From positions 62,001-126,000 of the forward strand of contig JAQAJJ010000002.1 in the NCBI GenBank assembly GCA_028278675.1: a DNA stretch of 64,000 nucleotides. The letters are read 5' to 3'. This DNA is from Candidatus Azophilus lithoversatilis (lineage in GTDB: Bacteria; Pseudomonadota; Gammaproteobacteria; Pseudomonadales; Azotimanducaceae). This document shows positions 1 through 9,603 of this stretch, piece after piece. The translations under genes and the position numbers were made by a program. The stretch's first letter is position 1. Every line of letters starts with the position of its first letter. Under the pieces are notes generated by a model. That model had not been told where the DNA came from, did no database searches, and saw nothing but the letters and a program-made list of their open reading frames with translations.

Positions 1-2141
1 TTGATCGCCCACGACTCCCTAATCCGTCCCTCATGGAACAGACCCCACGCGAGCGCGGACTTCATGTCGTCGCTTTGCGCGACGATCCTCGAATTCCCTT
101 CCAAGAAAGCCACCACTGACGGGTGGTCTGTCGGCGGTCGACTCAGTACGCCGACCACCTCGTACGCGTTGTCCAGAGTGGGTTCACGCGAGAACAACTC
201 CCGGACGAGCAGTTCCACCTTCGTCCAGTCCTCCTGCGCCTTCAGGTAGCCGATGAGGTTTCGCAGGTCGATCAGCTCGTTCGAATCCTCATACAGCGCC
301 TCCAGTTGCTCCCGCGGATCGCCTCCTCCCGCAGTATGGAGCGCAACCTCCATGCGTTTACGCGCCTCGTCGACTACAAGGTCATGTCGGTCCTCCAATA
401 CCGCCCGGGCTCGCTCGCTCTGACCGTCGGCCAAGAGCGCCTCAAACAACGCGACCGTAGTCATGGACGTTCCCAGGACGCGGTCAAGCCTCTCGAAGCG
501 TTTCTCAACATACGTGGCGAACTCCCGCGGACCCATGGTGCTCTGATTCAGCAGACACTCCGCGAACACCTCCTCATCCACGAGACCACCGAACTGTTCC
601 CGTTTCCCCAGCTCCTCTCGCAACGCACGACCGTCGAAATCGATCCCGAAAGCCCAAGCGAGCGAAACTAGGCCCACGCCTCTGTCTCTCTCCTCCAAGC
701 GTGCCTGCACCTTCCGACGGCCCCTCGCTACTCCGTCCCCATCGGGGTTCATGAGCTCAAGCCAGCATTGCCAAGCGGCCACGCGCTCCACGATCCTATT
801 GCCCGCAAGAGCCGGCAGACTGCCTTCGACGAACGTGAAACACTCAACTGCCCGCGAGTGCCGCTCCTTCGCCCCGTCCTCCAAGTTCGGACGAATCCCC
901 ATGTACGTCGGAAGGCCTTCTAGGGCCAAACCTCTCCGCTCGGCAGGTAGCAGCAGCGCGGCGTTGATCGTCCCTTCGAGCATTGCCAGGGTCGGCACCC
1001 AACGAGACGCCGACGCCAGCACCCTCAAGCCTTCGGCAGCCTCCTCCCATCGCCCCGACTTGGCCAAGCAAACGCCCCACTCGTGCCATCCCAGATCCTC
1101 GAAGTGATCCGGATTCTTGTTCGGATGCACATCCTCGAACCACTGCAACGCCGCCTCCGGTCCCCGGAAGCGGTGCAACACTCCGAACAGTACCGACCTT
1201 GCCGACGGGCTAGCGACGTCGCGAAGCAGTTGGATCGCGCCATCCTCGTCATCCTCCGTTGACTTGAGCAGGGCATCCACAATCCGCAAATCGCTGTCGC
1301 CGTACGCCTCCGGCAGTTCTTCTCGCATCAGGCGCGCGTCCACGACGGTTTCGGTACTGGACGCCAATAGTCTGCTCGCCCAATAGCACACGGAGTTCCT
1401 CGCTCGTTCAGGCGCCATAGCCAGATCGTCTTGCTCGACCCTTCGCCAAAGCGCCCTCACCCGAGCGACGGCGTCCTCGAAGTCAAACATCCTCCAGGCC
1501 AGAATGGCCGACAGTTCCTCGTCTGCGATCTTCCCGAGCGCCTCCCGACCAGCCGCATCCACAGTCGATGCTCGGTCGATCCGGTCCCCTATCCGATCGA
1601 TCTGCCGGACTACTTCGCTGTGTCCCGCCTGGATCATGCCCGCTACCGGCCGCTGCTCTCGCGGCATGGAAGCGAAGTACCCTGCGGTCAGAGTCGCAAC
1701 TACCACATCGATTGGCACTTCAGCGAAACGAGCCGCTTCTCCCGTCTGCTCCGAGTAACTCTCGGCAAGGCGTCCCCGGATCCCCACTTCATCGTTGGCC
1801 TCCTGTCCCATCACATGCGCCCTGGCAATCGCCAGGAACCCGTCCTCGACTTCCGCGAGTTCCAACCAACTGCGCACCATCGGCTTACGGAAAAAATCCG
1901 GGGCAACGTACGTTTGCTCCCATGCCATCAGCACCGATCGCCACCAACCGTCGTCGACGCTGCCGCCCCGCAATCGACCCAGAGTTTCCTTCAGCACACT
2001 ATCGAACAGGTCCGTGCGCACCTGTGCAGGAGCTCGCGCCCCTTGCCGCTCCGCGCGCAGTCGTCGCACCCTCTTGGCTACCGTACCCGCCAACGGCAAA
2101 AGGGCCTTTGCCGCCACACTCCCCAACATCTCCATGCCCAT
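1..2141 (-). CDS. Large uncharacterised, mostly helical (possibly TPR-like) protein, C-terminus beyond left window edge; downstream partner of the GTPase-like gene
   Basis: Manual reverse-complement translation from ATG at 2141 (MGMEMLGSVAAKALLPLAGTVAKRVRRLRAERQGARAP...) is open to position 1. No tta/cta/tca in that phase across 3..2141; an in-frame TGA lies just upstream of the ATG. Absent from the ORF track because no stop lies inside the window. Confidence 0.8.
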   Translation of the reverse strand, partial: MGMEMLGSVAAKALLPLAGTVAKRVRRLRAERQGARAPAQVRTDLFDSVLKETLGRLRGGSVDDGWWRSVLMAWEQTYVAPDFFRKPMVRSWLELAEVEDGFLAIARAHVMGQEANDEVGIRGRLAESYSEQTGEAARFAEVPIDVVVATLTAGYFASMPREQRPVAGMIQAGHSEVVRQIDRIGDRIDRASTVDAAGREALGKIADEELSAILAWRMFDFEDAVARVRALWRRVEQDDLAMAPERARNSVCYWASRLLASSTETVVDARLMREELPEAYGDSDLRIVDALLKSTEDDEDGAIQLLRDVASPSARSVLFGVLHRFRGPEAALQWFEDVHPNKNPDHFEDLGWHEWGVCLAKSGRWEEAAEGLRVLASASRWVPTLAMLEGTINAALLLPAERRGLALEGLPTYMGIRPNLEDGAKERHSRAVECFTFVEGSLPALAGNRIVERVAAWQCWLELMNPDGDGVARGRRKVQARLEERDRGVGLVSLAWAFGIDFDGRALREELGKREQFGGLVDEEVFAECLLNQSTMGPREFATYVEKRFERLDRVLGTSMTTVALFEALLADGQSERARAVLEDRHDLVVDEARKRMEVALHTAGGGDPREQLEALYEDSNELIDLRNLIGYLKAQEDWTKVELLVRELFSREPTLDNAYEVVGVLSRPPTDHPSVVAFLEGNSRIVAQSDDMKSALAWGLFHEGRIRESWAI

Positions 2142-2208
2142 CCCCTTATCACCTCACGCCGCGCCGACCGCCCGACGACGAGCCTCACCCGCGTCAGACA
2201 TTAGCCGC

Positions 2209-2256
2209 CTGGACGCCAAAGCCGCGGCCAACCTCGCCGCGCTGGCTCCCGTCGCG
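2209..2256 (+). mobile_element. Short IS110-family transposase relic between the two island genes
   Basis: In-frame 'LDAKAAANLAALAPVA' against 'LDAKTAPSLAGLAPVA' of the IS110 remnant at 5.05 kb: 12/16 aa and 39/48 nt identical. Confidence 0.5.
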
Positions 2257-2265
2257 GGCGTATCC

Positions 2266-4566
2266 TTAACCCTCTTCACGGCTTCCCGCCTCGACACGTC
2301 CGTACTCTTCCTCCAACTCGAGGCCGCCGCCCGCCTCCCCCATCGCGAATGCGACTAGCTTCCGCACCTCCGCCACGATTGGTTCGATCCCGGGCACCGG
2401 TGCCGCTGCCCCGTAGATATCGCGCAGCCGCTGCGCCCGCACGTACGAGGAGCCCCGACCCGCGTGCTCAAACGCCTCACCCCACTCATTGAAGTGTTCC
2501 TCTACGATGCGATCCATCGCGAACGAGTGCAGCGCGGTGTAGACCTCGGCCCGAATCCTAGCGATCGCCGCGGCGGCTTCGTCTTGGTCGCCAGCCGTCC
2601 GCTCCCACCTCGCCGGAGCGTCGAGAAACCGCGACGTTGCCTCCGAAAGACGTCCGATGAGTTCCGCCACCGGCATCAGGTGTTTGTACTCGTAGTTGTC
2701 CATTCGATACGTAACACGCCGCGTCAGTGCTCTAACCCGCGCCCAGTGCTCTTTGCTCACCCCGTCGCGCCTCCTATAGCCAAGTCTCGCGTCCCACAAC
2801 GAGTGGAACTCTCGCGATGCCGACTGCACCGCGAACGCGAGCCCTGCCGGGTCGTACATCGGTCGCGCCTGGGGCTGCGGCTCCGGCTCAATGATGGACT
2901 GCACGAACCCCATCAGCTCCCCGAGTTGTTTGCGCGCCCCGCTTGGAATCCCCTCGGCCGGCTGGTCCAACCAGCCCAGCATGAAGCACCTTTCGTCCAG
3001 CCGCCGCTCGAGACCGCCGACGACCACATCACCAATCGCGTCCCGCAAGCGCGCCAACGCGAGCTTCACCGCCCCGAGCACGTGGTCCCTTTTCGCCGCA
3101 AAGTCGGGCAGGTTGTCCCCTTTGACGGCGTCGAAATGCGTGAACGCAACCGCCAGTTTGTCCGCGTGTCCGCCCGTCCCGACCGAACGGAGCACCGACA
3201 AGGGCGCCGCCTGCATCGGCTGCGTCGCGTTGTCAACGACCAAGACCACATCGACCGTTGCGTACCGCGACGTGTAGTGGGTGCTGACGTTCGCTGCGGA
3301 CTCCGGCGTGTGGCCGAGTCCCTCGCCATCAATCAGTACCACCCTCGGGATCTCGCCGCCGAACCCGGTTACGAACGGGCCCCTGACGCGCATGCCCTGC
3401 ACGACAGGCGTGAGCAGCCGCCCGTAGGCCCTGTGATAGTTACTCGAGAACCACCGTGCTTGACGCATAAAGTCGTTCCGGTCGTCGCTCCGAAACGTCC
3501 ACTTCTCCGGCCATCCGCCACGTCTCGTCAGCGTCCCTTGCTCCAGATGAGCGAAACGCCGCAGCACATCTTCAGTGATCGCGTCCACCAGCGCCGCGTG
3601 GTCCGGCAGGCCCTCCGCTTGGTCCACAAAGAGGTCCGACGCCGCCTCCTGGTCTTCCGCCTTCATGTCCTTCAGCGGCTCGTCCAGCACTCCCGCTATC
3701 GCCGCGTCGGCTTGTGCTGCGAGTTGCCGGACCCTTTCCTGGTACCCGTCCAGCGCAGACTGCATCGCCGCGCGTTCCTCCGCCGTCGGCAGCGAGCCCG
3801 CGTCCAGCTCGTCCTCGGGTTCCTCCTCTTCAGTTGCATCCCCCCAGTCGTCCTCTTCCGGTTCTCCCTCGTCCGGCGACCAAGCCCCCAGCAGGTACCC
3901 CAGCCGGAACCGCTGATCCTTATGGTTCAGCAGATCGCGCATCACCCGCTCGTCTGAGCCGTCGCGCCACGCCGTTTTACACGCCTCCGACACCGACTCG
4001 CTCACGTAAGTCCGCACGAGTCTTCGCGGAAAAAAGGTCACGACCGCCTCGAAGTCGCCGGGGCCCACAATCACCTCGATGTCCGCGATCGTCGTCTTGC
4101 CTGTGGATGTCGACGGGAAGCGGTCCCTCGTCGGGTGCGACCCGATCAGTTGGCGCAGCAGCGAGGTCTTTCCCGCCCCCGTCGTGCCGATCAGCATGAC
4201 TCTCGAATAGCCCTCGTCCCTGTCGGGTAGCCGGATTTCCTCCTCACGGATCGCCATCGGGTCCTTACCTGCCGGGTTGTCCATGGGTTCGTAGAACGCA
4301 CGCACGACCACGCTGTGGAATCGCTGCTCGGCTCGACCCCGCTCTGCCACGTTCCAATAGCTCTCATCGCCAAGCAACGCGTTCAGCTCCGCCACGAAGG
4401 CGTCCGCCTCCTCGCTGTCGCTGGTCCCCAGGCCCCGTCGCACCTTGACGCCAATGCGCCCCTCGTCGTCGCGGCAAACCGGATGCCGGAAAGTCACCGC
4501 CCATGCTTTCCGGCCCTGCGTCCTCGACTTCGCCGCGGTATATGTTCTCGCCTTGGTTTCAATCAT
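2266..4566 (-). CDS. Uncharacterised P-loop GTPase/NTPase-like protein
   Basis: 780-aa ORF (start probably MIETKARTY at 4566). Walker A/G1 'VMLIGTTGAGKTSLLRQL', DxxG-like 'VVLIDGEGLGHT', G4-like 'AFTHFDAV'; N-terminal 'WAVTFRHPVCRDDEGRIGVKVRRGLGTSDSEEADAFVAELNALL' resembles integrase Arm/AP2-like DNA-binding domains. Confidence 0.8.
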   Translation of the reverse strand: MIETKARTYTAAKSRTQGRKAWAVTFRHPVCRDDEGRIGVKVRRGLGTSDSEEADAFVAELNALLGDESYWNVAERGRAEQRFHSVVVRAFYEPMDNPAGKDPMAIREEEIRLPDRDEGYSRVMLIGTTGAGKTSLLRQLIGSHPTRDRFPSTSTGKTTIADIEVIVGPGDFEAVVTFFPRRLVRTYVSESVSEACKTAWRDGSDERVMRDLLNHKDQRFRLGYLLGAWSPDEGEPEEDDWGDATEEEEPEDELDAGSLPTAEERAAMQSALDGYQERVRQLAAQADAAIAGVLDEPLKDMKAEDQEAASDLFVDQAEGLPDHAALVDAITEDVLRRFAHLEQGTLTRRGGWPEKWTFRSDDRNDFMRQARWFSSNYHRAYGRLLTPVVQGMRVRGPFVTGFGGEIPRVVLIDGEGLGHTPESAANVSTHYTSRYATVDVVLVVDNATQPMQAAPLSVLRSVGTGGHADKLAVAFTHFDAVKGDNLPDFAAKRDHVLGAVKLALARLRDAIGDVVVGGLERRLDERCFMLGWLDQPAEGIPSGARKQLGELMGFVQSIIEPEPQPQARPMYDPAGLAFAVQSASREFHSLWDARLGYRRRDGVSKEHWARVRALTRRVTYRMDNYEYKHLMPVAELIGRLSEATSRFLDAPARWERTAGDQDEAAAAIARIRAEVYTALHSFAMDRIVEEHFNEWGEAFEHAGRGSSYVRAQRLRDIYGAAAPVPGIEPIVAEVRKLVAFAMGEAGGGLELEEEYGRVEAGSREEG

Positions 4567-4689
4567 TATCTTCGCCCGACGTTGTACCCAGTTGTTCCAA
4601 CTTACCACGCGGCGTCAGGCGACGCAATCGATCGGGTACACCCCGGTACAACAACAGCACCCTTCGATTTGCATCGTGCGGGCAGCAAG

Positions 4690-5369
4690 CCCAGACCGAC
4701 GCCGCCGCCGCGCGCATGCTCGCCGCGATGGGTGCCGCCATCCAGACGCGACTGGACGAACCGCCGTCGGCGACCCAACGCGACCTCGACGAACCCCAGA
4801 CCGCCCGGGACGCGCTGGCGAAGAGCCGGATCGCCGTGCTCAACCGCCGCCACATCGCGCGTCACCCGCTCGTGAAGCACCAGCTGCGTTACCGGCTGAC
4901 CCAGATCGACAACCAGCTCAAGGCCATCGACGCCGCGATCCGCAAGCTCGTCAAGGCGGACGAGGCGCTTGCGCGCAAGGCCGCGGTGCTCACCTCGATC
5001 CCGGGCGTCGCCGCGATCACCGCCGCGGGGCTGCTTGCCGGGATGCCGGAACTGGGCCGTCTGGACGCCAAGACGGCGCCCAGCCTCGCCGGCTTGGCCC
5101 CCGTCGCGCGCGAGTCCGGCCAATGGAATGGCCGCCGCTTCATCGGCGGCGGCCGCGGCCGGGTGCGCAAGCTCCTGTACATGGCCGCCCTGAGCGCCGT
5201 CCAGCACAATCCGGACCTGGCCGGTGTCTGCAGCCGCCTCCGCGAACGCGGCAAGCCGGGCAAGGTCGCGCTCACCGCCGTCATGCGCAAGCTGATCGTG
5301 CTCGCCAGCACGTTGCTGAAGGAAGACCGCGAGTGGACCCCAGCCTTCAGCCCGAGCGCCGGAACATGA
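4690..5369 (+). pseudogene. IS110-family transposase, C-terminal part only
   Basis: '...LTSIPGVAAITAAGLLAGMPELGRLDAKTAPSLAGLAPVARESGQWNGRRFIGGGRGRVRKLLYMAALSAVQHNP...' is typical of the IS110 C-terminal (Transposase_20) domain; the N-terminal DEDD domain is absent. Confidence 0.85.
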
Positions 5370-5477
5370 CAATCAGCCGCCGTACGCAGTCGCCCGCACG
5401 AGGCCCGGATGGCACCTCCGCGACGACGCCGGACGCCCTGCCGCAACCGGTGCCGCACCGCCGCCGTCGCGCGTCGC

Positions 5478-5530
5478 GTTGCATCCGCTATGTGAGGGTG
5501 CTGCGCACCCTTCGACATAGCGGCTGCAAC
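5478..5530. repeat. Long hairpin / inverted repeat downstream of the IS110 remnant
   Basis: GTTGCATCCGCTATGT (5478-5493) pairs with ACATAGCGGCTGCAAC (5515-5530) with one mismatch; inner AGGGTGC-TGC-GCACCCT. Confidence 0.85.
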
Positions 5531-6378
5531 GACTCCCGGCGTTCGCGCAGTTTCCAGCCGCACCACCCCCAAGGCGTTGCCAAACGCCGCCGATCTCCGC
5601 GATATTCCCACCCACTACCAAGCCCGCTCCACCGCGAGCGGCAACGTTGGACCGACCGGTCCTAGTTCGCATCGGAGAAGCGGCGCACCGACGCCAGAAC
5701 CGGGGCACCCGCACGCGGCTCCGGCGCGTGAAGACGCGGCAAGTGCCATGTGACACGAAGCGTACCGGGGGCGACGGCGGCCTCCCGCGCGGCGACATCC
5801 GCGCCAGCGCGAACCGGGGACACCCGGCCAGCGCAACGCCGACTGGCCATAAACCGATTCCCCGCCGGCCACGGGGACGTGCCGACCGACGGCAGCTACC
5901 ACGGGGCGACCGCACGGCTCCCCGAACGCAGCGATCCTGCGACAGTGCGGCAGGAGGCCACCCACGCCTCCCGCGGGTCACGCCCGCGAAGTCGAGCCGG
6001 GCGGTCCCGGCAACACACCGTTTGGGCCACAAGCCCATAGCGACGAAGCAACCCGACGCGATCCATCGGCGCTTCCCAGGCGTCCATGCGCAACCGTGAC
6101 GAAAGCGACATGGACGGGATGCGGCAGGGCATCCCGCGCGGCTTCAACAGCGCGACAACCACCTGCAACGGCGAGAGCAGTCCCGACCGCGTCCGAAAGG
6201 ACGGAACGGGGGCGAGCCGGGGACGGAATCCGACAAGGCGATGGCCGACGTCGTGTCCATTACCCGCGGAGCTGCGAGAAGTACCAGTACGTCCGAGAGG
6301 GACGGCCTGTTCGCAGCGAAGTTCTTACGGAAACACAACTGGATTGCCAGACGCGCCCTGCGCTCGGGAGGAACGCAC

Positions 6379-9245: not shown

Positions 9246-9603
9246 TGGTGGAGGCGGCGGGAGTCGAACCCGCGTCCGTGGGTTCGCCGCAATCGGCTCT
9301 ACATGCTTAGGGTCCGTCTATTGCTTTAACCGCAAGCGGCCCGGCGGTCAGGGCGCTGTTGGCGAGCCCGGAAAAGTTTGACGCTGCCGCCCCCAGGCGT
9401 GGGCGAGAGCGCGATCCTGCTGTCTTTGCCGCCGATTTCACCCCGCAGGCGAGGGATCATCAGCGTTAGCGGGGTTTTAGGCCGCTAGTGCGTAGTTGTC
9501 GTCGTTGGCAACTATGGGTTTGCAGCGATTGTTTAGCGAGAGCCGCTACTCTCTCGGCATGCACCTTTTGCTTTGATACCGACGTCGAGACCGTATCGCC
9601 CCC
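9246..9603 (-). ncRNA. ssrA: tmRNA (ssrA), tag ANDDNYALAA
   Basis: 5' GGGGGCG pairs with 3' CGCCTCC before ACCA; T-arm GCGGGTTCGACTCCCGC; ORF GCC AAC GAC GAC AAC TAC GCA CTA GCG GCC TAA. Confidence 0.97.

Follow-up and report, generated by a model that had tools for sequence, protein, structure and literature searches.

A predicted dynamin-type GTPase and a predicted TPR-PIN-Gre-like fusion protein encoded side by side in a bacterial island

Two large genes lie next to one another on the minus strand of a bacterial island, one encoding a GTPase-like protein (B) and the other a much longer protein (A). Do they form one two-component defence module, or are they separate genes that have come to be neighbours? 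A preliminary description favoured the first answer, proposing an undescribed, possibly defensive pair in an ssrA-linked island beside IS110 scars, and it presented A as a large protein of unknown function. The window considered here is the whole stretch of DNA that was analysed, 64,000 nucleotides in length, and corresponds to C17:62001-126000 of a 3.77-Mb draft genome.

The locus and its surroundings

The main elements of the locus, in window coordinates, are these:

2269..4566, minus strand: gene for protein B, 766 aa, a stand-alone gene with an ATG start and an in-frame GTG at 4608
1..2141, minus strand: N-terminal 713 of the 2065 aa of protein A; the gene runs on to window position -4056
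4503..5369, plus strand: IS110 family transposase fragment upstream of B (PF02371, E 1.7e-16)
2204..2260, plus strand: IS110 transposase remnant of 57 bp in the gap between A and B, 81% identical to 5056-5112 (E 5e-10)
9246..9603, minus strand: tmRNA (ssrA), with its 3' end towards the island

Both open reading frames are real and co-oriented, as had been described. Gene A had been taken to be open at the edge of the window, with a length of at least 713 aa; the open edge is correct, and the contig continues leftward to complete the gene (C17:57944-64141, window 2141 down to -4056) at 2065 aa. The B stop at 2266 and the A start at 2141 leave a gap of 124 bp. The IS110 scars are likewise genuine, consisting of the PF02371 fragment and the 57-bp piece, the latter lying in the gap in the orientation opposite to that of A and B. 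A 55-bp imperfect palindrome (window 5477-5531) is located just downstream of the IS110 fragment.

The tmRNA (ssrA) is there, but the 20-mer at its 3' end occurs only once in the whole genome, providing no second att copy, so that integration of the island at ssrA is not proven. The left side of the island holds a C5 methyltransferase with an EcoRII-C endonuclease as well as a truncated M.Eco57I-like methyltransferase. Two tandem, overlapping Arm-type tyrosine integrases are also found in the island at window -11708 to -9316 (L002:4292-6684), and an Eco57I-like restriction-modification gene, broken into a pair of overlapping frames and probably a frameshifted pseudogene, at window -9247 to -6285 (L002:6753-9715).

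Protein A and the TPR-GreA/B-C-PIN system

The part of A that lies within the window comprises two regions:

1524..2141, minus strand: N-terminal helical domain of A, residues 1-206, common to its relatives in loci L118 and, by eye, L124
3..1523, minus strand: TPR-like repeat region of A, from residue 207

The N-terminal domain is 31% identical to that of the L118 orthologue over residues 12-170. Matches to TPR models fall below the cutoff in A, near it in L118 and above it in the relative at L122. Beyond the window, A has an HTH at residues 842-904 and the PIN acids D918, E954 and D1198/D1199. A PIN domain of the family type is indicated by a match to PF24407 (HTH_upst_double_PIN) above cutoff (E 3.3e-9) and by conservation of the acidic positions, D918 and D1198/D1199 being retained in all seven aligned relatives and E954 in the four close ones; PF20698 (PIN-TPR-GreABC) scores 21.6 bits, under its cutoff of 27.8. 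From about residue 1450 onward A resembles a separate partner gene of its relatives (hhalign 99.5%, E 1.5e-22, about 570 columns). These partner genes carry PF24388 (Permuted_GreAB-C, E 1.1e-7 and 3.9e-10), and it is through homology to them, not by a match of its own, that A acquires a GreA/B-C assignment; the C-terminus of A alone falls short of the model.

Downstream of the close relatives in Agrobacterium fabrum (L014, 1529 aa) and Methylophaga (L015, 1366 aa), and overlapping each of them, is a second gene of about 630 aa, the Permuted_GreAB-C partner. The fused form of A is found again in L118 (2051 aa), and L124 has the two-gene form. Other N-terminal domains occur among these relatives: PNP in L122 and, by eye only, alpha/beta-hydrolase in L014.

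A TPR-GreA/B-C-PIN conflict system has been described, as a prediction, by Kaur et al. 2021, eLife (PMC8195603); its Gre-like domain is predicted to dock on phage-hijacked RNA polymerase, its PIN nuclease to cut the transcript, and its variable N-terminus to serve as a second-line effector. The HTH and PIN domains, the PIN acids and the homology to Permuted_GreAB-C partners together identify A, on sequence grounds, as a fused variant of this system, with a predicted RNA-cutting activity. A therefore loses its standing as a protein of unknown function. Neither protein had been recognised in the preliminary description as part of a named defence system; A is of the TPR-GreA/B-C-PIN kind, and B was matched by none of the systems searched. 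A shares with the described system the PIN-type acidic residues, the homology to a Gre-like partner and a location in a defence island, and has putative TPR-like repeats; among its relatives, L122 begins with a PNP domain and L014, by eye, with an alpha/beta-hydrolase. A differs from it in having a permuted Gre-like region that follows the PINs, in its HTH and double-PIN arrangement, in an N-terminal domain matched only in L118 and, by eye, L124, and in being fused, whereas two relatives keep two genes. If A works as the described system is predicted to, its Gre-like domain would dock on RNA polymerase hijacked by a phage, its PIN nuclease would cleave the transcript, and its variable N-terminus would act as a second-line effector.

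Several further observations were made around A relatives. In L120 (561-1706) a PNP-bDLD3 gene lies directly upstream of an A-like protein, which fits the published picture of conflict systems. In L118 (2264-15091) the 2051-aa orthologue lies 22 bp downstream of HmaB-like and HmaC-like genes, as if it had replaced or joined an Hma helicase module. A 940-aa viral-contig protein situated among phage structural genes (L117:1729-4551) has a weak, 26% match to the PIN region of A that is possibly spurious. Searches of phage records by tblastn, with A and with B, gave no matches.

Adjacency of A and B

The two-component module had been put forward with the proviso that homologues of its members should co-occur. 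They do not. A scan of ORFs with the A core covered about 105 B loci beyond the present genome and detected no A relative in them; its hits were confined to the two loci that had been fetched for A itself. Among 80 other B-bearing genomes a single one has A, on a different contig from B, which is no more than the background of 6 in 399 genomes of a phylum sample that includes the present one; none of seven B-bearing plasmids has A. The shared strand, the 124-bp gap and the common defence island speak for a single two-component defence module; against it stand, besides these counts, the IS110 remnant that separates the genes and the fact that A relatives have a partner of their own, which in A is already fused. 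We regard a joint module as very improbable. With co-occurrence no higher than background and an IS110 remnant in the gap, the adjacency is best read as an IS110 accident. The account that we consider probable is one of independent defence genes adjoined via IS110, A being a fused TPR-HTH-double-PIN-GreAB-C protein and B a soluble, lone dynamin-type GTPase. What remains of the original proposal is the possible defence setting and the large GTPase, both of which are supported.

Protein B: fold, spread and possible function

The following elements of B can be placed on the minus strand:

4279..4539, minus strand: N-terminal domain, residues 10-96, three beta strands and helices
4165..4188, minus strand: G1/Walker A motif GTTGAGKT, residues 127-134
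4090..4125, minus strand: switch-I-like motif DRFPSTST..KTT, residues 148-159
3547..4026, minus strand: helical insertion, residues 181-340, between switch I and G3 in the AF2 model
3307..3336, minus strand: G3 motif LIDGEGLGHT (DxxG), residues 411-420
3130..3141, minus strand: G4-like motif THFD, residues 476-479

The G1, G3 and G4-like motifs had been read correctly from the sequence, as had the acidic stretch, a linker at residues 235-257 within the helical insertion. Across 57 B homologues of 32-55% identity there is no variation at G127, G130-T134, D413, G416, G418 or H419, and conservation of THFD is 90% or higher; motif invariance of this kind means that the motifs are not there by chance. 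The AF2 model built from the 57-sequence alignment (pLDDT 89, pTM 0.86) retrieves dynamins in Foldseek: SynDLP (E 3.4e-7), IniA (7.5e-6) and MxB (5.4e-4), and also Fzo1 and BDLP. Whole-chain TM-scores against dynamins are low (0.2-0.4), and the match is thus mainly one of the G domain. The Dynamin_N model touches 16 of the 57 family members. With G1, G3 and G4 motifs invariant or nearly so, and with Foldseek and Dynamin_N in agreement, the assignment of B as a predicted dynamin-superfamily GTPase with a helical insertion inside its G domain is well supported. No specific family model for B was matched in Pfam, NCBIfam, PADLOC or PHROGs, and a fold search of BFVD gave no match below 1e-3.

The N-terminal domain (model pLDDT 85) has no significant Foldseek match in the PDB. 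The domain, which bears the motif FRHP..D..GK.G..VRRGLGT..EA, is present in 50 of the 57 aligned homologues. An Arm/AP2-like DNA-binding fold, suggested by the GK.G..RRGLGT..EA portion, found no support in the Foldseek result or in hhalign, where the comparison with integrase Arm domains reached only 2.5%.

Like SynDLP, IniA, BDLP, DynA and Mx, B has a predicted dynamin-superfamily G-domain fold and a large helical C-terminal part; unlike them, it carries an extra helical segment inserted between switch I and G3, has THFD where G4 is normally found, and combines a novel N-terminal domain with the lack of a membrane paddle. The LeoA dynamin models of PADLOC offer a parallel in being large GTPases in a defence context, but the similarity is confined to the P-loop (E 0.004 over 24 residues) and B has no gene pair. 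Likeness to Septu (PtuA/PtuB) and PARIS (AriA) enters only via the ATPase fusion and HNH gene of a distant homologue (L095, below); for the B of the window there is no match to a PtuA or AriA ATPase with a nuclease.

About 100 homologues of B, drawn from plasmids, 80 genome contigs over many phyla and 15 viral contigs, are distributed over Pseudomonadota, Cyanobacteria, Actinomycetota, Bacillota, Chloroflexota, Acidobacteriota and others. Across these loci B has in general no conserved partner gene; it mostly stands alone, on defence-rich plasmids and in islands, or as a moron in prophage tail operons. In L098, L105, L109 and L110 the homologue stands by itself on the opposite strand, surrounded by prophage tail genes, a position that makes it moron-like; these contigs are of alphaproteobacterial type, with a terminase near the B homologue. 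Neighbours of B include BREX (L011), type I R-M (seven loci) and DISARM DrmD-like helicases (four loci), as well as Hachiman, AbiEi and SIR2 proteins. PADLOC and Pfam give a mixed picture of the neighbourhoods overall, in which metabolic genes are common, and in the absence of a matched control we claim no enrichment. B apparently represents a dynamin-type family that is widespread, unnamed and set in a defence context.

Fusions occur at the edge of the family. In L095 (164-3878) a distant homologue (E 1e-20) is joined to an AriA/PtuA-type ABC ATPase (1.3e-39, 1.7e-26), and a PtuB-like HNH gene (3.4e-13) follows; L006 (335-2203) contains the start of the same arrangement. Separately, in one subfamily of B (L062:12220-13689, L066 and L069) the B gene overlaps another of 490 aa, whose product ends in a SEC-C-like motif and has an N-terminus that looks nuclease-like by eye.

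What, then, may B do? From these features we infer antiphage activity, as we do for A, along with every mechanistic step given for either protein: most likely B is an autonomous antiphage GTPase resembling Mx and GBP proteins. Infection would trigger GTP binding and assembly through the N-terminal domain, the helical insertion or both; assembled B would stop the phage as Mx or GBP proteins do, and in side branches a B-type GTPase would be coupled to nuclease effectors.

In the main rival reading B is a dynamin of the DynA or SynDLP sort that remodels membranes, repairing or sealing them under infection or stress, and does not attack phage. The folds closest to B are those of bacterial membrane dynamins, and B. 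subtilis DynA, the precedent for dynamin-based phage resistance, confers that resistance at the membrane (PMC8844932). B, however, lacks any transmembrane stretch or hydrophobic paddle (maximum 19-aa hydropathy 1.18), carries an unusual insertion in its G domain, and has a relative in which the GTPase is joined to a PtuA/AriA-type ATPase and neighboured by a gene for an HNH nuclease, an arrangement better suited to a sensor; we consider a membrane role unlikely. That B might instead serve the maintenance of mobile elements, or counter-defence, is suggested by its carriage on plasmids and prophages and by some neighbourhoods in which known defence genes are absent; with BREX, type I R-M, DISARM and Hachiman among its neighbours elsewhere, and with the AriA/PtuA-type fusion accompanied by a PtuB-like HNH gene, we find this quite improbable. 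The proposal that B founds an undescribed, widespread group of autonomous immune GTPases, Mx/GBP-like and equipped with a new N-terminal sensor, whose side branches activate PtuA/AriA-type ATPases and nucleases, is advanced tentatively, at somewhat less than an even chance.

The significance of the locus is different for its two genes. A supplies a complete representative, in fused form, of the predicted RNA-polymerase-targeting TPR-GreA/B-C-PIN system. If B is antiphage, then dynamin-type immunity of a soluble, single-gene kind would be widespread in bacteria, even on prophages; the fusion branch would link a dynamin switch to nuclease effectors; and the family would constitute a direct bacterial parallel to the Mx and GBP proteins.
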